Shown in pieces: positions 13,140 through 22,264 of a stretch of DNA of 64,000 nucleotides. Position numbers and translations under genes: made by a program. Numbering within the stretch: the first letter of the stretch is position 1; the number at the start of each line of letters is the position of its first letter. The notes beneath the pieces are model-generated. The model saw only the letters and a program-made list of their open reading frames with translations. It had not been told where the DNA came from and ran no database searches. This stretch comes from Candidatus Methanomethylophilaceae archaeon (GTDB taxonomy: Archaea > Thermoplasmatota > Thermoplasmata > Methanomassiliicoccales > Methanomethylophilaceae), in the NCBI GenBank assembly GCA_944320485.1, contig CALUHQ010000026.1:1-64000 (forward strand). Reading direction: 5' to 3'.

Positions 13140-14843
13140 TTACTGTCCTTCTTCCAGGAGCGCCAGGAAGAACCTCCTCTGCATCTCGTTGTTGAGGATG
13201 TGCGGCGGCTTGAGCTGCGACGACGCCGTCCCCTTGGAGATGGCCAGGTCCCTGTACAGGAGGTATGTCTCCGGCTGGACGTACTTGACGTCCAGTCTCC
13301 CGAATATGCCCTTCTCGAACTTGTATCCGTACTGGGGGTTCGTGTCGCAGAGGTTGCGGTTCAGCTCCTCGGCGATCTCCTCGCGGGTGAGCCCCTCGGG
13401 CATTCCGTCCGGCTCCAGGAGGTAGACGTACCTCAGTGGGTCGCCGGACGCGTCGGGGTAGGCGGAGAAGTCTATGACGTCGAAGCCCAGGCTCCTCTCG
13501 GTCCTCTCCAGGGCCTCCCTGAGGGCGACCTCGGTGGTCTTCTCCCCGGTCATGTCGAGGCACTGGTCGATCCTGTACTGGAACTCCATGAGCGGCGTGC
13601 TGTTGTGCATGCCGGTCACCTTGAGGGCGTCCCTCATCCTGTAACGGTAGAATCCCGAGAAGTTGGTGGCGACGATCTCGTAAAGCCTGCCGACCTCCAG
13701 CTTGTCCATGGTGACTATGTCGGCGGGGTCGCCCGTGTCCACGGGGATGAACTCGTAGAACATGCTGTCCGGCACCACGATGGCGTTGACGTCGTCCATC
13801 GCCAGGGGGTTGGTGAACAGCCCCTCGGAAGCGGTGACCCCAGGGAACAGGTACCTGAACCCTTCGCCCGCATACTTCTCCTTGAGTCTCCTGAGGTAGT
13901 CGGCGAATCCTCCCGTGGAGATTCCGACTATGATGACCATGTTCGGCCAGATCCTGGGCATGACGGGCTCGTCGAAGCCCTTCTCGAATATCGCCCTGAG
14001 CTCGGCGGCCCTCTCGGGCATGGGCTCGACCTTCGCCTCCAGGCTCCTCCTGACCTCGTCGGGCATCTTGATGCTCTCGTCGATGGTGCCCTCCTCGATG
14101 TCCCTGACAAGCATGCGCCACTCCTTCTCGATGTACTGCATGATCTCCAGGGTCAGGCTGATGTAGCTGCACACAACCATGGTGACGTCCCTGTTCATCA
14201 GGGCGAACCTCGCGTGCAGGTAGCGGGTGTTGGTCTTCGGGTCCGGGACCAGGGCCTCCTGGGGGGAGGTCATGAAGAGCTTCAGGTGCTCGCCCAGGGA
14301 CAGGACGATCCTCCCGGAGATGGCCCCGTAGGTGGCCCCGTTCTTGAGGGTGGTCATGGGGGCCTCGATGAGGTTGATGACCGGCGGCTCGATCCATCCC
14401 AGCCCAAGGGCCTCGCATTGGATTGCCGTGCGGACCTGCTGGTTGTACCTGTCCAGTATGGCTACCGACTCGTCGGACACGGGGATCCTCTTCGGGTTCC
14501 CCATGGTGCCGGAGGACTTGGCGTAGTGCCCCACGTGGTACGAGGTGATGAGGTCTGTCTTCCCCTCCTCGGTCATCTGGTAGATGTACCCCGCGTAGTC
14601 GTCGTACATCGTTATGGGGACGCGCTTTTGGTACTCCTCGATGGAGTGGATGTCGGCGAAGCCGTACTTGCGTCCGTACTCGGTGTCCTTGTTGTCCCTG
14701 AGGATCTTCATCAGGACCTCGGTGTTGTACCTCATCGGGTCCTTCGTCATCTCCTCGAGCTTCTCGAGGACCGCCTTCCCCTCCATGTAGTTCTTCAGGT
14801 TCAGCTGTCCCATGGGGGTGAGCTTGGACGGGTCGATGTCCAT
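13140..14843 (-). CDS. GH3-family acyl-adenylating enzyme (first of two)
   Basis: A 567-residue protein of the GH3 family, which in plants activates a carboxylic acid as acyl-AMP and joins it to an amino acid. The adenylation motifs are present: SSGTMGNPKRIPVS (motif I, about residue 118), FPGVTASEGLFTN (motif II) and FYRYRMRDALKVTGM (motif III). Acid and amine substrates cannot be read from the sequence. Last gene of the seven-gene minus-strand cluster, 9 bases after the STAS gene, with a GAGGTG ribosome-binding site. A second diverged GH3 gene lies at 19632-21353. Ends with TAA. Confidence 0.88.
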   Translation of the reverse strand: MDIDPSKLTPMGQLNLKNYMEGKAVLEKLEEMTKDPMRYNTEVLMKILRDNKDTEYGRKYGFADIHSIEEYQKRVPITMYDDYAGYIYQMTEEGKTDLITSYHVGHYAKSSGTMGNPKRIPVSDESVAILDRYNQQVRTAIQCEALGLGWIEPPVINLIEAPMTTLKNGATYGAISGRIVLSLGEHLKLFMTSPQEALVPDPKTNTRYLHARFALMNRDVTMVVCSYISLTLEIMQYIEKEWRMLVRDIEEGTIDESIKMPDEVRRSLEAKVEPMPERAAELRAIFEKGFDEPVMPRIWPNMVIIVGISTGGFADYLRRLKEKYAGEGFRYLFPGVTASEGLFTNPLAMDDVNAIVVPDSMFYEFIPVDTGDPADIVTMDKLEVGRLYEIVATNFSGFYRYRMRDALKVTGMHNSTPLMEFQYRIDQCLDMTGEKTTEVALREALERTERSLGFDVIDFSAYPDASGDPLRYVYLLEPDGMPEGLTREEIAEELNRNLCDTNPQYGYKFEKGIFGRLDVKYVQPETYLLYRDLAISKGTASSQLKPPHILNNEMQRRFFLALLEEGQ

Positions 14844-14852
14844 CGGCGCACC

Positions 14853-15146
14853 TCACTCCATGGTTAGGACGTCGGTGAACCCGGTGGCCTCGAGGACCTC
14901 CATCACCATGTCCTGGACGTTCCTCACGGACATCCCGCCGCGGTTCACCATGAGCTTGTTCGCGGCCAGCAGGACCCTCAGGCCGGCGCTCGAGATGTAC
15001 TCCAGCTCCGACAGGTCCAGGACGAGCCCGTCGGCGACCTGGTTCGACCTGATGTACGAGTCCAGATCCGGCGCGGTGGTGGTGTCGAGCCTCCCGACGA
15101 TCCTGAGTACGGTCCTGTTTCCTTCCTTGCTCTCTATTATCTCCAT
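14853..15146 (-). CDS. STAS-domain protein (anti-sigma-factor-antagonist-like)
   Basis: A 97-residue single STAS domain related to SpoIIAA/RsbV. It contains the strand-helix segment LDLSELEYISSAGLRVLLAA, in which one of the serines aligns with the phosphorylated Ser of bacterial anti-anti-sigma factors. Archaea lack sigma factors, so here it is more likely a phospho-switch or scaffold for one of the neighbouring enzymes or the exporter. No cognate HPK-like kinase or PP2C phosphatase is in the window. Starts with a strong GGAGG site, 19 bases after the ABC gene. Confidence 0.9.
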   Translation of the reverse strand: MEIIESKEGNRTVLRIVGRLDTTTAPDLDSYIRSNQVADGLVLDLSELEYISSAGLRVLLAANKLMVNRGGMSVRNVQDMVMEVLEATGFTDVLTME

Positions 15147-15165
15147 AGGTCTCCCTCCTAAGCGT

Positions 15166-16923
15166 TCAGGGCGATGACATGCTGCGGTACATGTCCGCGT
15201 AGAGGCCGTCGAGCTCCATGAGCTGGTCGTGCGAGCCGACCTCCTTGATGTCCCCGTCCTTCATGAAAATGATTTTGTCGGCGTTGCGGATGGTGAACAG
15301 CCTGTGGGCGATGATGAACGTGGTCCTCCCCTCCATCATCCTCTCCATGGCCTTCGTCACCAGGGCCTCGGTCCTGGTGTCCATGTTGGACGTCGCCTCG
15401 TCCAGGATCAGTATCCGCGGGTCCGCCAGGACTGCGCGGGCGAGGATCAGGAGCTGCATCTCCCCGACGGAGAGCTGCGAGTTCTCCTCGCTTATGTAGG
15501 TGTCGTATCCGTCCGGCAGGACGTCTATGATGGAGTCGCATCCAACGGTTCTCGCCGCCTCCACGATCTCCTCGCGGGTGGCCCCCATCCTGCCGTAGGC
15601 TATGTTGTCGGCGATGGTCCCCTCGAAGACCCAGGAGTCCTGGAGCACCATGCCGAACGCCTTCCTGAGGGCGTCGCGGTTGATGCCGCGGGTGTCCGCG
15701 CCGTCGACGGAGATGGTGCCGCCGTATATCTCGTAGAACCTCATCAGCAGGTTGATGACCGTGGTCTTCCCGGCCCCGGAGGGTCCGACTATGGCCACGA
15801 CGGAACCGGGCTCGACATCGAACGACACGTCCCTGAACAGGGTCCTCTCCGGGACGTACCCGAAGGTGACGTCGCGGAACGCCACTCCTCCCTCGACCTT
15901 CGAGACGTCCAATCCGGGGAGCCCGCTCTCGTCCGGTTCCTCGTCCTCGTCCAGTATCTCGAAAAGCCTCTCCACGGCGGCCATCCCCGACTGCACCTGG
16001 TTCATGTTTGACGAGGCCGACTGCAGCGGGCCGCTCAGCATCTGCCCGTAGAGCAGGAAGGCCGTGAAGCCTCCGAGGGTGAGCGTGCCCTCGATGATCA
16101 TGTACGCACCGAAGATCGAGACGCAGATGTAGCCGATGTTGTTGATTATCAGGGTCAGCGGCATGATGAACCCGGATGCGAACTTCGATCTGACGTACGC
16201 CCTGTGGAACCTGCCGTTGATCTCCGAGAACCTCTCCTCGGACACGTCCTCCATGCCGTAGGCCTTCACCAGGGTGTGGTTGTTCAGGACGTCGCCCATG
16301 AACCCGTTCAGCTCCCCGACGGTGCTCTGCTGGAGCTTGAACCCCTTCTTCGTCTTCCTGGTGATGTACCGGATCATCAGGAACGAGACCGGCATCAGGA
16401 CGATGTAGATGATAGCCAGCGCAGGGTTGACGATGAACATCATGATCAGGATCAGGACGATCAGGAGCACCTGTACGATCAGGGTGAGCAGGTCGCTCTC
16501 CAGCAGCGACTCCACCGTGGTGAGGTCGTTGGTCAGGCGCGAGGATATGTCCCCCGAGGGATGCGTGTCAAGGAACCTGATCGGGACGCGGTTCAGCTTG
16601 TTGTGCAGGTTGCGCCTCATCCTCTGGGTGGCGTTCCTCGACACGATGATCATGTTCCTGTTGGATACCATCGTGGCGCAGTAGCCGAACACGTACAGCC
16701 CGGCGATGACGGCGATCAGCGTCAGGAAGCCGTCGTCAAGGTGGGCGTACCCGCCGGTGACATACTCCGTAAGCATGTCGATCAGGTTCCCTGCCAGCTT
16801 GGGCGCGAAGGCCAGGGCCATGCTGCCGAGGACCATGACGACCACCGCGATGATGGCCAGCCTGCGGTCCTTCGCCATGTATCCGCCGAGCCTCCTGAGG
16901 GAGCCCCTCTTGCCGCGTGCCAT
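15166..16923 (-). CDS. ABC exporter half-transporter, subunit with intact catalytic Glu
   Basis: A 585-residue exporter with six membrane spans and a C-terminal nucleotide-binding domain. Walker A is GPSGAGKTTVINL and Walker B is RILILDEATSNMD with the catalytic Glu, but the signature is LSVGEMQ instead of LSGGQ. The upstream partner has the opposite arrangement, so the pair should form one consensus and one degenerate ATP site, as in TM287/288 or BmrCD heterodimers. The start overlaps the partner's stop (TGATG). The open frame continues upstream only as a shadow. Probable substrate: the product of the surrounding ligase genes (inference). Confidence 0.93.
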   Translation of the reverse strand: MARGKRGSLRRLGGYMAKDRRLAIIAVVVMVLGSMALAFAPKLAGNLIDMLTEYVTGGYAHLDDGFLTLIAVIAGLYVFGYCATMVSNRNMIIVSRNATQRMRRNLHNKLNRVPIRFLDTHPSGDISSRLTNDLTTVESLLESDLLTLIVQVLLIVLILIMMFIVNPALAIIYIVLMPVSFLMIRYITRKTKKGFKLQQSTVGELNGFMGDVLNNHTLVKAYGMEDVSEERFSEINGRFHRAYVRSKFASGFIMPLTLIINNIGYICVSIFGAYMIIEGTLTLGGFTAFLLYGQMLSGPLQSASSNMNQVQSGMAAVERLFEILDEDEEPDESGLPGLDVSKVEGGVAFRDVTFGYVPERTLFRDVSFDVEPGSVVAIVGPSGAGKTTVINLLMRFYEIYGGTISVDGADTRGINRDALRKAFGMVLQDSWVFEGTIADNIAYGRMGATREEIVEAARTVGCDSIIDVLPDGYDTYISEENSQLSVGEMQLLILARAVLADPRILILDEATSNMDTRTEALVTKAMERMMEGRTTFIIAHRLFTIRNADKIIFMKDGDIKEVGSHDQLMELDGLYADMYRSMSSP

Positions 16924-18653
16924 CACTCCCCACCCCCTGCATAGGACTGGGTGGCGTGGATCTCGCGGTATATCTCGCAGGTCTCCAGCAGCTCCTCGTG
17001 GGTCCCCTGCTGGACTACGCGGCCCTTGTCCATGACCACGATGCTGTCCGCATCGCGTATGGTGCTGATCTTCTGCGCGACCATTATGACGGTCTTTCCC
17101 GCCAGGCGCTCGCGTATGTTCTCCCTGACGGTCCTCTCCGTCTTGGCGTCCAGGGCGGAGAAGCAGTCGTCGAAGACGTACACGTCCGCATCCCTGCAGA
17201 TGGTTCTGGCCAGGGACAGCCTCTGCTTCTGGCCCCCGGAGACGTTCATGCCACCTCTGGCCATCACGGTGTCCAGACCGTCGGGCATCCTCTCCAGGAC
17301 CTCGGAGAACATCGTGAGCCTGCAGGCCGCCTCCACGTCCTCCCTGGGCACGTCGGCCCCCATGGCCACGTTGGCGTACACGGTGTCCTCCAGGACCATG
17401 GTGCGCTGACTGGCGTAGGCTATCCTGGACCTCAGCTCCCCTATGTCCATGTCCCTGACGTCCACGCCTCCGAACAGCACCCTGCCGCCGGTGGGGTCGA
17501 AGAGCCTGGGCACCATCTGCACCAGCGTGCTCTTGCCGGAGCCGGTGGCGCCGATTATGGCCGTGGTGGTGCCCTTCCTTATCGTGATGTCCACGTCCGA
17601 CACGGCGTCCTTCGCCGCCCCTGCGTACCCGTAGGACACGTCCTCGAAGACGATCGCCTCGTCGCAGTCCGCCGAGGGCGAGACGCCCTTGGGGTCGTTC
17701 ACGACGGTGGGGTCGTAGTAGATGACCTCCTCCAGCCTGGCGGTGGAGACGACGGTCTTTGGCAGCGTGGTGACGATGAACGGGACGATCGCCAGGCAGC
17801 TGATGAAGTAGGTGACGTACTGGAAGAAGAGGATCATGTCCGATATCGTGATGAGCCTCTCCTGGAGCTCCACCGAGCCGAGGTAGTAGATCAGCAGCAC
17901 GGCCAGGTTCATGACCATCAGCGCGATGGGCGTCAGGTAGCAGATCTTCAGGGCGGCTCTCGTGGAGTCCTTGCGGAACTCCTCGTTGAGGTCGTTGAAC
18001 CTCTCGATCTCGTACTGCTGCCTCCCGAAGGCCCTGATGGTGCGTGCGCCCTCCGCCTTCTCCTTCACTAGAGTGTTCAACGTGTCCAGCTCCTCCTGGA
18101 CCTCGTTGAACATCGGCATGCTCTGGCGGCTCTTCACGACCATCATGGAGATGGTCACCACGAATGCCACCACGAGGACCGCGCAGAGGGTCAGGTTGAT
18201 CATGGCGGCGGCGATGACAAGGGCCACGATCACGATAGGCACCAGAAGGGCGTTCCTCAGGGCGTTGAGCATGAAGATTTGGATGCGTGTGGTGTCCGCG
18301 GTCAGGCGGGTCATCAGCGTGGACCCCCCGAACCTGCTGAAGTCCTTCTGCGAGAAGGTCATGATCCTCTTGAACAGGTCCCTGCGGACGTCGCATGTGA
18401 CGCTGGCGCTGAGGTACGCGCTGAGGTACGACACCAGGACTATGGACAGTCCGTACACCAGCGTCATGAGGATCATCCTGACCCCCGCGTCCTTGATGAA
18501 CCCCATATCCTGGTTGGCGACTCCTCCGTTGAGGATTGCATGGGTCTCCGAGAGGACCTGGAGCTGCAGGTACACCTGGAGCACCACGAACACGAGCAGG
18601 ACCAGTATCTGCTTCCAGTACGGGACCACGTAGTCCTTCAGGAAACGCCTCAC
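16923..18653 (-). CDS. ABC exporter half-transporter, subunit with degenerate Walker B
   Basis: A 576-residue exporter with an N-terminal six-span membrane domain and a C-terminal ATPase. Walker A is GATGSGKSTLVQM and the signature is NVSGGQKQRLSLART, both good. Walker B reads VYVFDDCFSALD, with Asp in place of the catalytic Glu. It therefore supplies the intact signature to the partner's active site while its own Walker site is impaired. Start is GTG. A 58-base gap containing a small GC hairpin separates it from the ATP-grasp gene upstream in transcription order. Confidence 0.93.
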   Translation of the reverse strand: MRRFLKDYVVPYWKQILVLLVFVVLQVYLQLQVLSETHAILNGGVANQDMGFIKDAGVRMILMTLVYGLSIVLVSYLSAYLSASVTCDVRRDLFKRIMTFSQKDFSRFGGSTLMTRLTADTTRIQIFMLNALRNALLVPIVIVALVIAAAMINLTLCAVLVVAFVVTISMMVVKSRQSMPMFNEVQEELDTLNTLVKEKAEGARTIRAFGRQQYEIERFNDLNEEFRKDSTRAALKICYLTPIALMVMNLAVLLIYYLGSVELQERLITISDMILFFQYVTYFISCLAIVPFIVTTLPKTVVSTARLEEVIYYDPTVVNDPKGVSPSADCDEAIVFEDVSYGYAGAAKDAVSDVDITIRKGTTTAIIGATGSGKSTLVQMVPRLFDPTGGRVLFGGVDVRDMDIGELRSRIAYASQRTMVLEDTVYANVAMGADVPREDVEAACRLTMFSEVLERMPDGLDTVMARGGMNVSGGQKQRLSLARTICRDADVYVFDDCFSALDAKTERTVRENIRERLAGKTVIMVAQKISTIRDADSIVVMDKGRVVQQGTHEELLETCEIYREIHATQSYAGGGE

Positions 18654-18711
18654 CCGCTGCCTTCCCCCATTCGTTTTCCCGCCGAGGCGGGGGCCGTCCC
18701 TGCGACGGAGG

Positions 18712-19635
18712 TCATATCAGGCCTTCCCTGTGGAGGATCTTCTTCGGCATGGAGAAGAAGCGCCGGACTAGCTCGTCGTCCCCCTCCTTCTGGGCCTTGA
18801 ACACGTAGGATATCCCGGGGACGGAGTTGACCTCGCAGAGGTAGAACTCCCCCTCGTTCTCGCCGAACAGGTAGTCGATGCTCCCGGTCTTCAGGCCGAA
18901 CGCGTCGGCGAGCCTGATGGACTGCTCCACCAGCTCCTGCGGGGGCTGGTAAGGCTCTATGTACCCTCCCTGGTGGAGGTTGGACTTGAAGTCCCCGTCG
19001 TTGTGCCTGACGAATGCGTACACCAGCTCGCCGGCCCCGACGACCACCCTCAGGTCCCTGCCCTTGGAGGACTGGATCGCCCTCTGCACGATGATCTGGT
19101 CGCCGAACGGCGCCGCCATGACCATGTCCAGGATGCTCTTCAGCTCACCCATGCCATTCACCAGGCACACGCCGCGGCCCTGGTAGCCGTGCATGATCTT
19201 CATCACCAGGGGGAACCCGATCCTCTCGGCGATGGAGTCCAGGCTGGTGTTCGGTCCGACGAGCATCGTGTCCGGGATCCTGATCCCGGGAACCGCCTGT
19301 TTCGCTATCTGGAAGGAGTAGAGCTTGTCGCCGGCCTTCTCCACGGCGTCGTAGGTGTTGACGCACACCACTCCGAGGGTCTCGAACATGCGGAGCACGG
19401 CCTTGAGCTGATAGGTCTCGCGCTCCTCGGTGGTCATTATGAACACGAAGTCCGGGCATTCGACCATCTCGCCGCGGATCCGGATCCGTCCGTCGAACGT
19501 GTCCATGGCCGTCACCTCGATGTCGTTGTAGTCGACGAAGTCCACGTCCAGCCCCTGGCTGGAGAACAGCGTCTTCGTCATCTCGAACTCCCTCATGAAC
19601 TGGGAGTAGTCCCCTGTGATCATTATGCCCTTCAT
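18712..19635 (-). CDS. RimK-like ATP-grasp ligase (first of two)
   Basis: A 307-residue ATP-grasp enzyme of the RimK/MptN/CofF group, which forms amide bonds between a carboxylate (as acyl phosphate) and an amino acid such as glutamate. Visible: nucleotide-binding Lys in PLVMKIMHGYQGRGV, IIVQRAIQSSKGRDLRVVV, and the metal-binding FYLCEVNSVPGISY near the C-terminus. The start at 19635 (MKGIMITGDY) overlaps the GH3 stop (ATGA); an in-frame ATG nine codons upstream is inside that gene. Pairwise it resembles the ligase at 21350-22264. The substrate is unknown. Confidence 0.88.
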   Translation of the reverse strand: MKGIMITGDYSQFMREFEMTKTLFSSQGLDVDFVDYNDIEVTAMDTFDGRIRIRGEMVECPDFVFIMTTEERETYQLKAVLRMFETLGVVCVNTYDAVEKAGDKLYSFQIAKQAVPGIRIPDTMLVGPNTSLDSIAERIGFPLVMKIMHGYQGRGVCLVNGMGELKSILDMVMAAPFGDQIIVQRAIQSSKGRDLRVVVGAGELVYAFVRHNDGDFKSNLHQGGYIEPYQPPQELVEQSIRLADAFGLKTGSIDYLFGENEGEFYLCEVNSVPGISYVFKAQKEGDDELVRRFFSMPKKILHREGLI

Positions 19636-21353
19636 CCAGATTCCTCCTCGTCCAACATCCAATCGTCATCGGGCGGGTTCATTATCCTTGTGTCCAGTTT
19701 GACCTGCGAGCGCGGGGCCCCCTCGGACTCGCGCCTGTCGTAGAGGCTCTCCTGCCATCCGCTTCTCATCAGGTGGATGGCGGGACCGTTGAGGGAACCG
19801 AGCTTGCGGTTCCTGTCGTAGAGTTCGAACGACCTCCTGAGCGCCGAGTCCAGGACCGAGGACCATTCCGTGGTGTCCACAGGGCCGTGGCCGGGCTCCG
19901 ATTCGACGTAGACGTCGTAGCGCTGCGCCGGGGCGTTCTCGTAGATCTGAACCTGCCTGGCGGTCAGCCCCATCGAGCCTGCGGTGGAGATCACCTGGTC
20001 GAGGACCCTGGGGGCCGGCAGCTTCTCCTGTGCGATGTTCAGGATCTCCCTGGACTTCGTGACGAACTCTATGTCCGGTGTGTCCCCCACGAAGCCCCTG
20101 ACCTTCACGATGTCGTGGATCATGTAGCGGTAGAGGCCTCCGTAGTTGGTGAGGAGGAGCTCGTACTCTCCGCCCTCCTCGAGCTGGTCGGCGGTCAGCA
20201 CGTCGCCTCCGCCGACGGGTATGAACTCGTAGAACACGGACATCGTGGCCAGCGTGCCGTAGCCGCATTCTGGGCGGTGGGGGATGTTGACCTTGGCCTC
20301 GCTGGCGCCGTATCCGATGTCGTAGTAGACCGTCCCCTCCGGGAGCAGGGGCCTGACCTTGGCCACGTTGACCCCCACGGACCCGGACAGCCAGAACCTG
20401 GCGGAGACCAGGTTCGGCCAATAGGTCCTGGGCGTGAAGTTCTCCCTGTCGGTGTCCAGTATGGCCTGCAGCTGCGCTGCCCTCTCGGGATGCGGGGACA
20501 TGTGTCCCTCGGCGGTCCTGCGCTCAGATTCGCTGAGGGCGAGGTCCGACCTGATGGTGCCGTCCCTCATGTCGCGGATGATCTCCTCCGCGTGCTCCTG
20601 CGCGTAGATTATCCTGGCGTACAGACGGGCGGCGTTGTTGGAGGTGACAACCATCACATCGTCGTGCATCAGCGCGAACAGCATCGTGAGGTACATCGTG
20701 GCCTCCCCGTCGGCCAGGCCCATGAACTCGCTGGGATACGCCAGGCCCTTGGAGAACGGGGATGACTCGAACGTCTTGCCCGATGCGAAGCCGACGCCTA
20801 TCCCGCCGGCGGTCCTCCTGTCGGGTATCGCGGAGGTCACCGAGTAGTAGTGGAACGTGTTGGCGAAATCCCTGGGCGTGGACATCCTGGGGTCCAGGCC
20901 CTTCGACCTCAGCATCCCCATGACGGACTCCGACCCGGTCATGACCCGGATCAGGTCCCCGGTCATGTACGCGTTCCTGATCTTGTTCACCGCGTTCTTG
21001 GCGTTCCTACTGACTTCTCCCTCAGGGATGAGCTTGGCCTTCCCGGTGGTACCGGATGTTGATATGAAGTACTCTGTCGGGCCGTGGAAGAGCACGTCCC
21101 CCTCACCGTCGGCCATGCGGTCTATGTAGGGGGCCAGGTCCTCGAACTCGTTGATCGGCACCGCTCTGCGGAACTCCTCCATCGTGCCGATCCCGGAGAA
21201 TCCGTGCTCCCGCCCGTAGGCGCTGTCGGCCGCCGCCGCGAGTATCCCCTTCAGGACTTCCTCCTGCGTCCCTCTGCAGTCGGTGCACATGGCCTCCCAG
21301 CGGGCAAGGGCCTCCCTGTCGCCCAGCGACAGTATCTCGTCGTGCGGCCTCAA
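19632..21353 (-). CDS. GH3-family acyl-adenylating enzyme (second of two)
   Basis: A 573-residue GH3-family protein with the adenylation motifs STSGTTGKAKLIPEG, DIGYGASEAKVNIP and LYRYMIHDIVKVRGF. It is clearly diverged from the GH3 protein at 13140 and probably acts on a different acid or amine. Start is TTG, overlapping the stop of the upstream ATP-grasp gene (TTGA), with GGAG 9 bases before it. Its stop overlaps the next ATP-grasp start. This tight coupling of ligase, GH3 and ligase suggests fixed stoichiometry or a complex. Confidence 0.87.
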   Translation of the reverse strand: MRPHDEILSLGDREALARWEAMCTDCRGTQEEVLKGILAAAADSAYGREHGFSGIGTMEEFRRAVPINEFEDLAPYIDRMADGEGDVLFHGPTEYFISTSGTTGKAKLIPEGEVSRNAKNAVNKIRNAYMTGDLIRVMTGSESVMGMLRSKGLDPRMSTPRDFANTFHYYSVTSAIPDRRTAGGIGVGFASGKTFESSPFSKGLAYPSEFMGLADGEATMYLTMLFALMHDDVMVVTSNNAARLYARIIYAQEHAEEIIRDMRDGTIRSDLALSESERRTAEGHMSPHPERAAQLQAILDTDRENFTPRTYWPNLVSARFWLSGSVGVNVAKVRPLLPEGTVYYDIGYGASEAKVNIPHRPECGYGTLATMSVFYEFIPVGGGDVLTADQLEEGGEYELLLTNYGGLYRYMIHDIVKVRGFVGDTPDIEFVTKSREILNIAQEKLPAPRVLDQVISTAGSMGLTARQVQIYENAPAQRYDVYVESEPGHGPVDTTEWSSVLDSALRRSFELYDRNRKLGSLNGPAIHLMRSGWQESLYDRRESEGAPRSQVKLDTRIMNPPDDDWMLDEEESG

Positions 21354-22264
21354 CGGACCAACTCCAGGAGCCTGTTCATCCCGTCCAGGTAGCGCTTGGA
21401 CACGTCTCCCCTCGTGCTGTCCATCAGATAGGGCAGCCCGACCGACGAGTTGGCCTCGCAGAGGTAGAACTCCCCCTCGTTCTCGCCGAACAGGAAGTCG
21501 ACGCTACCCATCACCATGCCGATCGCCTCGGCGAAACGGACGGCGGCGTCCTTCAGCTCCTGCGGGGGATCGAACTCCTCGACATGTCCGCCCTGGTGGA
21601 CGTTGGAGGTGAAGCTGCCCGGGTTCACGCGCACCAAAGCGTCGACGACTTGTCCGCCGAGGACGATGAGGCGCAGGTCCCTGCCCTTAGAGGACATGAT
21701 GGCCTCCTGGGCGATGATCTGGTCCCCGAACGGGGCTCCGTTGACAAGCTTCAGCAGGTTCTTGAGTTCGGCCTCCGACTCGGCCAGGACGATCCCGGCG
21801 CCCCCCTCCCCGTGGAGGACCTTCAGGACGACCGGGTATCCGATTCCTTCCCCGATGGTCCTCGGGTCCATGCCGGGGGTCACGAGCATCGTCCTCGGTA
21901 TCCTCACGTCGGGGATGACCCTGCTTGCGACCTGGAACGTCAGCAGCTTGTCTGAGGTTATGTCCTTGCATGTTGCGGGGTTGATACACAGCACCCCTCT
22001 CCCCTCCAGCATGCGGAGGACGGATTTCAGGCGGTAGGACTCGTTCGCGTCCAGTCCGAAGGCCCTGACGGACACGAAGTCGGGGAGCGGTACGCGCTTT
22101 CCGTCGGCGAGGAGCATCGTATCATCGTCATTATCGCCGACTGTCGTGACTATGTCCTCGAAGAACATCGACTCCACGTCTATGCCCAGGAGGGACCTCA
22201 TGACGCCGACCTCCTTGTCCACGTCTGTCCTCCTCCTGTTGACCAGATAGATTCCCTTGACCAT
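21350..22264 (-). CDS. RimK-like ATP-grasp ligase (second), first gene of the cluster
   Basis: A 304-residue ATP-grasp ligase with PVVLKVLHGEGGAGI, IIAQEAIMSSKGRDLRLIV and FYLCEANSSVGLPY. It shares long identical stretches with the ligase at 18712 (for example the segment around LFGENEGEFYLCE). A good ribosome-binding site (GGAGGAGG) about 6 bases upstream supports the ATG at 22264 over the longer open frame. First gene in transcription order of the cluster 22264 to 13140. MptN/CofF-type glutamate ligases of cofactor pathways are the main alternative, but these are not usually found next to GH3 genes. Confidence 0.87.
   Translation of the reverse strand: MVKGIYLVNRRRTDVDKEVGVMRSLLGIDVESMFFEDIVTTVGDNDDDTMLLADGKRVPLPDFVSVRAFGLDANESYRLKSVLRMLEGRGVLCINPATCKDITSDKLLTFQVASRVIPDVRIPRTMLVTPGMDPRTIGEGIGYPVVLKVLHGEGGAGIVLAESEAELKNLLKLVNGAPFGDQIIAQEAIMSSKGRDLRLIVLGGQVVDALVRVNPGSFTSNVHQGGHVEEFDPPQELKDAAVRFAEAIGMVMGSVDFLFGENEGEFYLCEANSSVGLPYLMDSTRGDVSKRYLDGMNRLLELVR

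Follow-up and report, generated by a model that had tools for sequence, protein, structure and literature searches.

What could seven neighbouring genes for two GH3 enzymes, two RimK-type ATP-grasp ligases, two ABC half-exporters and one STAS protein do together in a methanogenic archaeon? The question is raised by a stretch of 64,000 nucleotides (nt), hereafter the window, from Candidatus Methanomethylophilaceae archaeon (assembly GCA_944320485.1, contig CALUHQ010000026.1). The genes occupy positions 13140-22264 on the reverse (-) strand in the transcription order ATP-grasp, GH3, ATP-grasp, ABC, ABC, STAS, GH3, with intergenic gaps of -4, -4, +58, -4, +19 and +9 nt. A preliminary description of the window had reported seven genes on one strand in this order, with overlaps or short gaps, and the coordinates and Pfam assignments agree with it. 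Pfam domain scores were judged against curated cut-offs (21 bits for the RimK ATP-grasp domain), and every assignment in the cluster (GH3, RimK ATP-grasp, ABC_membrane with ABC_tran, STAS) lies far above its cut-off. All seven genes are intact. Alternative start codons exist for both ABC genes (GTG) and for the second GH3 gene (TTG), which leaves the overall picture unaffected.

We consider it fairly probable that these genes form a horizontally spread operon, controlled by a partner switch and largely independent of non-ribosomal peptide synthetases (NRPS), in which a small amide product is built and exported. The GH3 enzymes would turn a carboxylic acid into an acyl-AMP and couple it to an amino acid or another amine. 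The RimK-type ATP-grasp pair would extend the product with amino-acid units via acyl phosphates, and the heterodimeric ABC exporter would secrete it. An RsbW-like kinase would hold the STAS protein phosphorylated, and a SpoIIE-type PP2C phosphatase in the membrane, which has a putative sensor region, would dephosphorylate it upon a signal. The free STAS protein would then bind the kinase and so release the target of the kinase, which may be an enzyme or the exporter directly, or transcription.

Relatives of the cluster were found by a scan with the GH3 sequence alone as the query, and 80 GH3 loci were tallied. The comparison within the genus covers 31 genomes, the wider sample of the phylum 390 genomes, and the family of Methanobrevibacter RGIG2541 (Methanobacteriota) 139 genomes. 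GH3a, encoded by the last gene of the cluster, is present in 4 of the 31 genomes of the genus; these four species have all seven genes in identical order, and GH3a of the window is 71-90% identical to its counterparts in three sister species. The clusters of G000 and G015 share a chromosomal site, and those of G027 and G023 lie at another one, adjoining a PAC2-SpoIIE-kinase group. RGIG2541, a member of a different archaeal phylum, has the identical seven genes in the identical order. Clostridial genomes G291 and G497 carry the same families on one strand, reordered as STAS-GH3b-GH3a-ABC-ABC-ATP-grasp-ATP-grasp, and G385 has this arrangement without STAS. Because the order is kept in the sister species and in Methanobrevibacter and the families stay together in Clostridia, the grouping of the seven genes is not due to chance.

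GH3 was found in 5 of the 390 genomes of the phylum and in 18 of the 139 genomes of the RGIG2541 family. In a GH3 tree, which was built quickly and has some weakly supported forks, archaeal GH3a sequences nest among those of Bacillota, and this fits horizontal transfer. The cluster is accessory and has probably spread horizontally. The preliminary description had proposed a look at the gene neighbourhood in related genomes; the cluster turns out to be kept in related and unrelated genomes alike. It is not specific to archaea, since Clostridia have the same seven families.

By its closest named relatives, the host is a methanogen of the Methanomethylophilaceae/Methanomassiliicoccales group. The host genome is 88% complete, and claims of absence are therefore soft; its only two GH3 genes, as far as it is assembled, both sit in the window. 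Each product carries the N-terminal, middle and C-terminal GH3 domains above the Pfam cut-off. The ATP motifs are kept in GH3a (SSGTMGNPK, TASE, GFYRYRMRD) and in GH3b (TSGTTGKAK, YGASE, GLYRYMIHD). The two proteins are only 28% identical and belong to separate clades, the GH3b clade being distinct with a support of 100. One side observation concerns GH3b of G027 (UBA71), where the gene has one in-frame TAG (L019:7522-7524) opposite a Glu codon of the window gene and an otherwise open frame. The order of the host reads TAG as pyrrolysine; read-through and recent loss are both possible.

The two ATP-grasp proteins share 45% identity. The catalytic Lys, Asp, Glu and Asn of the family are invariant in 23 aligned sequences, including an outgroup from contig C39 of the host genome, and the pair co-travels with GH3 genes across phyla. 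A rumen Eubacterium encodes an 850-amino acid (aa) fusion of a RimK ATP-grasp domain with GH3, next to GH3, ATP-grasp and ABC-ABC genes. In the ABC pair, ABC-A has an FDD Walker B motif (Asp for Glu) and Gln in the H-loop. ABC-B has LDE and the canonical His at these positions and a degenerate signature, LSVGE. Heterodimeric exporters of the TM287/288 type combine a degenerate ATP site with a consensus one, and the pair matches this pattern.

The STAS protein of the window exceeds the cut-off of the anti-sigma-factor-antagonist model TIGR00377 (59.7 bits vs 53.45), and the Ser-Ser of the SSAGLR/SSSGLR motif is kept in 11 of 11 aligned STAS proteins. The preliminary description had cast this protein as a switch. 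The system is wider: the STAS protein of the window is one part of a full partner-switching module, and the larger share of this STAS, kinase and PP2C phosphatase set is encoded outside the window. The host genome has one SpoIIE gene and one gene of a kinase with a HATPase_c_2 domain, adjacent on contig C52, where a second STAS gene adjoins them. The switch kinases have an intact N-box and intact G-boxes in the HATPase_c_2 domain. The predicted structure of SpoIIE matches the PP2C domain of SiaA; among the matches listed only the PP2C domain was matched and none from the PDB covered the sensor region, in a model of moderate confidence.

Switch genes are found near GH3 genes in many relatives. 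STAS, an RsbW-like kinase or SpoIIE lies within 8 kb at at least 32 of the 80 loci, and STAS lies within 300 nt of GH3 at at least 19; these counts are minima because many contigs end prematurely. The state "switch gene nearby" changes 12 times on the GH3 tree, and therefore the linkage recurs in distant clades. G027 and G023 have the kinase gene a few nt behind GH3a and, beyond it, a SpoIIE gene in convergent orientation. In G137 and G124 the switch brackets the operon on one strand (SpoIIE-STAS-GH3b-ATP-grasp-ABC-ABC-GH3a-kinase). In several Methanobacteriaceae genomes the kinase domain (HATPase_c_2) forms the C-terminus of GH3 fusion proteins some 712 aa long, and a more degenerate version of it is fused to MATE exporters. 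The model of the GH3-HATPase fusion is unreliable past residue 567, and therefore we claim no domain interface. An apparent fusion of 905/1150 aa in L192 was rejected as the product of a masked run of N. As side observations, the GH3-HATPase_c_2 gene of about 712 aa in L203-L205 and L023 is found beside STAS, two SpoIIE genes and a MATE exporter that in most cases has a degenerate HATPase tail; other Methanomassiliicoccales (L228, L229, L231) have SpoIIE-kinase-STAS with a MATE-HATPase gene nearby and no GH3.

The same switch accompanies NRPS genes. In RGIG2541, 21 nt separate the first ATP-grasp gene from the end of an upstream NRPS gene, whose 2190-aa product has adenylation (A), thiolation (T) and condensation (C) domains in the order A-T-C-A-T-reductase; genes of STAS, kinase, SpoIIE and a phosphopantetheinyl transferase run divergently from this NRPS gene. 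Clostridial G217 has GH3a-GH3b-NRPS(A-T-C)-ABC-ABC. In the host genus, 12 genomes have SpoIIE-kinase-STAS immediately behind NRPS genes whose terminal reductase suggests peptide aldehydes. Searches of the host genome at its 88% completeness found no Condensation domain, and the cluster itself is not an NRPS. Because switch genes stand beside NRPS genes in the genus and in Methanobrevibacter ruminantium, the cluster of the window is best seen as the GH3/ATP-grasp counterpart of these NRPS clusters. The ATP-grasp-GH3 fusion and the NRPS neighbours are independent signs of a role of the GH3/ATP-grasp set in amide natural-product synthesis. Mutual exclusion of NRPS and GH3 within the genus (13 and 4 genomes, zero overlap) gave p = 0.097 and is not claimed; RGIG2541 holds both. 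In three genomes of the genus (L130, L211, L215) SpoIIE-kinase and STAS stand together with a radical SAM/SPASM gene, a C39-peptidase ABC gene and a second ABC gene, a cluster resembling those for export of ribosomally synthesized and post-translationally modified peptides (RiPPs).

The preliminary description had also proposed that the ligases build an acyl-amino acid or short peptide for secretion. The intact motifs, the ATP-grasp-GH3 fusion and the NRPS genes in sister clusters argue for a secreted amide, and its closer definition as an acyl-amino acid or short peptide stays a conjecture. The positions of the features are collected below.

Table. Features of the cluster in the window and loci of related arrangements (aa, amino acids)
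Feature	Position or loci	Strand	Basis
ATP-grasp ligase A, RimK family, 304 aa, first gene	21350..22264	-	PF08443, 99.0 bits
GH3b, predicted acyl-adenylating amide ligase, 573 aa	19632..21353	-	PF03321, 207 bits, with GH3_M and GH3_C
ATP-grasp ligase B, RimK family, 307 aa	18712..19635	-	PF08443, 102.8 bits
ABC half-exporter A (ABC-A), degenerate-site partner	16923..18653	-	PF00664 and PF00005
ABC half-exporter B (ABC-B)	15166..16926	-	PF00664 and PF00005
STAS-only protein, anti-sigma-factor-antagonist type, 97 aa	14853..15146	-	PF01740, 53.3 bits
Ser52-Ser53 codons in YISSAGLR, Ser53 predicted phospho-acceptor	14988..14993	-	Motif conservation; phosphorylation inferred
GH3a, predicted acyl-adenylating amide ligase, 567 aa, last gene	13140..14843	-	PF03321, 243.5 bits
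NRPS with SpoIIE-kinase-STAS, host genus	L131, L134, L213, L216, L220-L227		
GH3-Amidohydro_3 loci	L034-L047 (not every locus of the range), L052, L055-L057, L062, L064, L069, L082, L085, L098		

Some bacterial GH3 genes have other partners. In rumen Lachnospiraceae and others GH3 forms a two-gene operon with an Amidohydro_3 amidohydrolase, the amidohydrolase gene directly adjoining GH3 at 20 of the 80 loci; the two enzymes possibly form a make/break pair for an acyl-amino acid. In Coriobacteria and Eubacterium oxidoreducens (L061, L071, L075, L076) GH3 adjoins an enzyme of the choloylglycine hydrolase (Ntn) family, and at the Coriobacterial loci STAS and SpoIIE are adjacent as well. Large genes directly upstream of STAS-GH3 in two Lachnospiraceae (L093, L095) resemble, by eye only, baseplate genes of contractile tails. 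According to the PADLOC models the cluster matches no known anti-phage defence system; the ABC proteins gave only generic overlap in the ATPase domain and the other five proteins none. Scans for sigma-70 promoters and terminators gave results at chance level, such models being ill-suited to archaea.

The same genes could be given other roles. If the two ATP-grasp proteins, which do belong to the RimK superfamily, were ordinary ligases for cofactors or protein tailing (MptN, CofF, LysX, RimK), their place beside an exporter would be a coincidence. This is barely credible: with at most 92 bits they miss all the equivalog cut-offs of MptN, CofF, LysX and the ribosomal S6 ligase (350, 300, 275.6 and 331 bits), with MptN and CofF at 55-82 bits, and even on the RimK subfamily model TIGR00768 they stay slightly under the cut-off (139.7 and 135.4 bits vs 143.4). 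A separate RimK-family gene of the host genome, on contig C39, passes that cut-off with 178.9 bits, and the co-travel of the pair with GH3 genes across phyla is likewise hard to reconcile with coincidence. The preliminary description had named ordinary MptN/CofF ligases together with inactive GH3 proteins as the case that would undo its proposal; the low model scores and intact active-site motifs point away from it. A membrane aminolipid pathway, in which GH3 would act like OlsH to make lyso-aminolipids that the ABC pair then flips, draws on the only NCBIfam match of both GH3 proteins, OlsH, and on MsbA as the best model for the ABC proteins. OlsH is a bacterial GH3 shown biochemically to be a lyso-ornithine-lipid synthetase, and it shares with the GH3 proteins of the window the ATP-driven joining of an acid to an amino acid and the nucleotide motifs (PMC12493201). 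The relation is very distant, however: the scores are 72.1 and 63.0 bits against the equivalog cut-off of 620 (NF052613), and the MsbA score is under its cut-off of 602 bits. The cluster also has no O-acyltransferase, that is, no counterpart of the OlsH partner OlsI, and archaea are stated to be without ornithine lipids (PMC12493201). Sporadic distribution and NRPS linkage better fit a specialised metabolite, and we hold the aminolipid pathway to be quite improbable.

We also regard as unlikely that GH3 serves detoxification by conjugating amino acids with free acids, aromatic or of plant origin, much as the plant enzymes treat auxins, the exporter then removing the conjugates. The solved structures nearest to the GH3 proteins are indeed plant hormone-conjugating GH3 enzymes, and the amidohydrolase found beside GH3 at a quarter of the loci could reverse a conjugation. 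However, two GH3 enzymes, two ATP-grasp ligases and NRPS neighbours would all be superfluous for this task, and the clusters with ATP-grasp genes have no amidohydrolase. A different kind of alternative concerns only the target of the switch and is compatible with the amide pathway: the switch may act on transcription, through some archaeal target, and not directly on the enzymes or exporter. Archaeal transcription uses TBP and TFB instead of sigma factors. Since Archaea are not known to use sigma factors, a sigma factor is unlikely as the target. Free-standing kinase and STAS genes dominate, and gene expression is the target of most characterised STAS-only systems (PMC8256260). Leahy et al., in the part of their paper on analogous genes of M. 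ruminantium, proposed regulation of NRPS expression (PMC2812497). Against this, the kinase domains fused to GH3 and MATE point to a local protein target, and no transcription-factor family is among the recurring neighbour families; we put transcriptional control at somewhat below an even chance. More tentatively, and with considerable doubt, we suggest that in archaea and gut bacteria a GH3 amide synthetase, together with its exporter, is under the direct control of a partner switch that involves no sigma factor. Once dephosphorylated by the sensor phosphatase, the STAS protein would draw the RsbW-like kinase domain away from GH3 or from the transporter, fusions of the kinase to GH3 and to MATE would be covalent forms of this contact, and the exported amide may be the sensed signal. 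The choice between direct and transcriptional control is near even, with the fusions favouring the direct one.

Several points weigh against an exported amide under switch control. The cluster is present in only 4 of the 31 genomes of the genus. The kinase and phosphatase genes of the host genome are unlinked to it and lie beside the second STAS gene; the link to the switch in this genome is therefore made by count and analogy, and the STAS protein of the window either shares that kinase and phosphatase or functions without them. Neither a dedicated precursor gene nor a self-immunity gene was found, and the genes flanking the Clostridial and archaeal clusters include no precursor gene hinting at a substrate. 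Some bacterial GH3 genes among the 80 loci have no ATP-grasp or switch genes, an amidohydrolase being the commonest partner. Finally, we infer the substrates, the reaction order, the product, its export and the released target of the switch.

One of the closest known arrangements is that of M. ruminantium M1, where the first archaeal NRPS is surrounded by genes of serine phosphatases, of an anti-sigma antagonist and of a MatE exporter, according to the relevant part of the report (PMC2812497). As in the window, an adenylating peptide-forming enzyme lies near switch genes and an exporter in a gut methanogen (mru0066-mru0071), with a proposed bacterial origin; a serine kinase of the anti-sigma type belongs to a separate cluster, mru0512-0516. 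Those clusters combine NRPS with MATE, whereas the window has GH3, ATP-grasp and an ABC pair, and that part of the report describes no GH3 (PMC2812497). In the E-64 pathway an ATP-grasp ligase works with an adenylating amide synthetase to assemble a short pseudopeptide stepwise and independently of NRPS; the adenylating enzymes there and for cystargolide (CysC/CysD) are, however, amide bond synthetases of the ANL family, GH3 is not named in the paper, and its sections on these pathways describe no partner-switch genes (PMC12568646). With RsbU/RsbV/RsbW and SpoIIE/SpoIIAA/SpoIIAB the module shares a STAS protein with a conserved Ser, a HATPase_c_2 kinase and a PP2C phosphatase; unlike them, it is found in an archaeon, where no sigma target is expected, and in natural-product clusters. 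SiaC of Pseudomonas aeruginosa is not known to be a standard STAS protein. The SiaABCD system offers a likeness for direct control, as it has a phosphatase, a kinase and the phospho-switch protein SiaC, which binds and activates the enzyme SiaD directly, although SiaD is a diguanylate cyclase (PMC7278518, PMC8457831).

Thus both the NRPS-independent amide ligase pathway and the partner switch are of known kinds, and what seems new is their combination here. Searches of the open-access literature found no account that connects a GH3 gene with partner-switch or ATP-grasp genes, and the gene set, for which the preliminary description knew of no archaeal pathway, was found nowhere in it. If our reading is right, methanogens and Clostridia have in common a class of small molecules of the gut microbiome that are made by GH3 and ATP-grasp enzymes, without NRPS or alongside them. 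Genome mining centred on NRPS and polyketide synthases (PKS) could miss such clusters. It would also become possible to test what a partner switch governs where sigma factors are absent. Genes of the same switch accompany NRPS, RiPP-type and GH3 clusters alike within the genus, so the answer would extend to the secreted products of gut methanogens generally.

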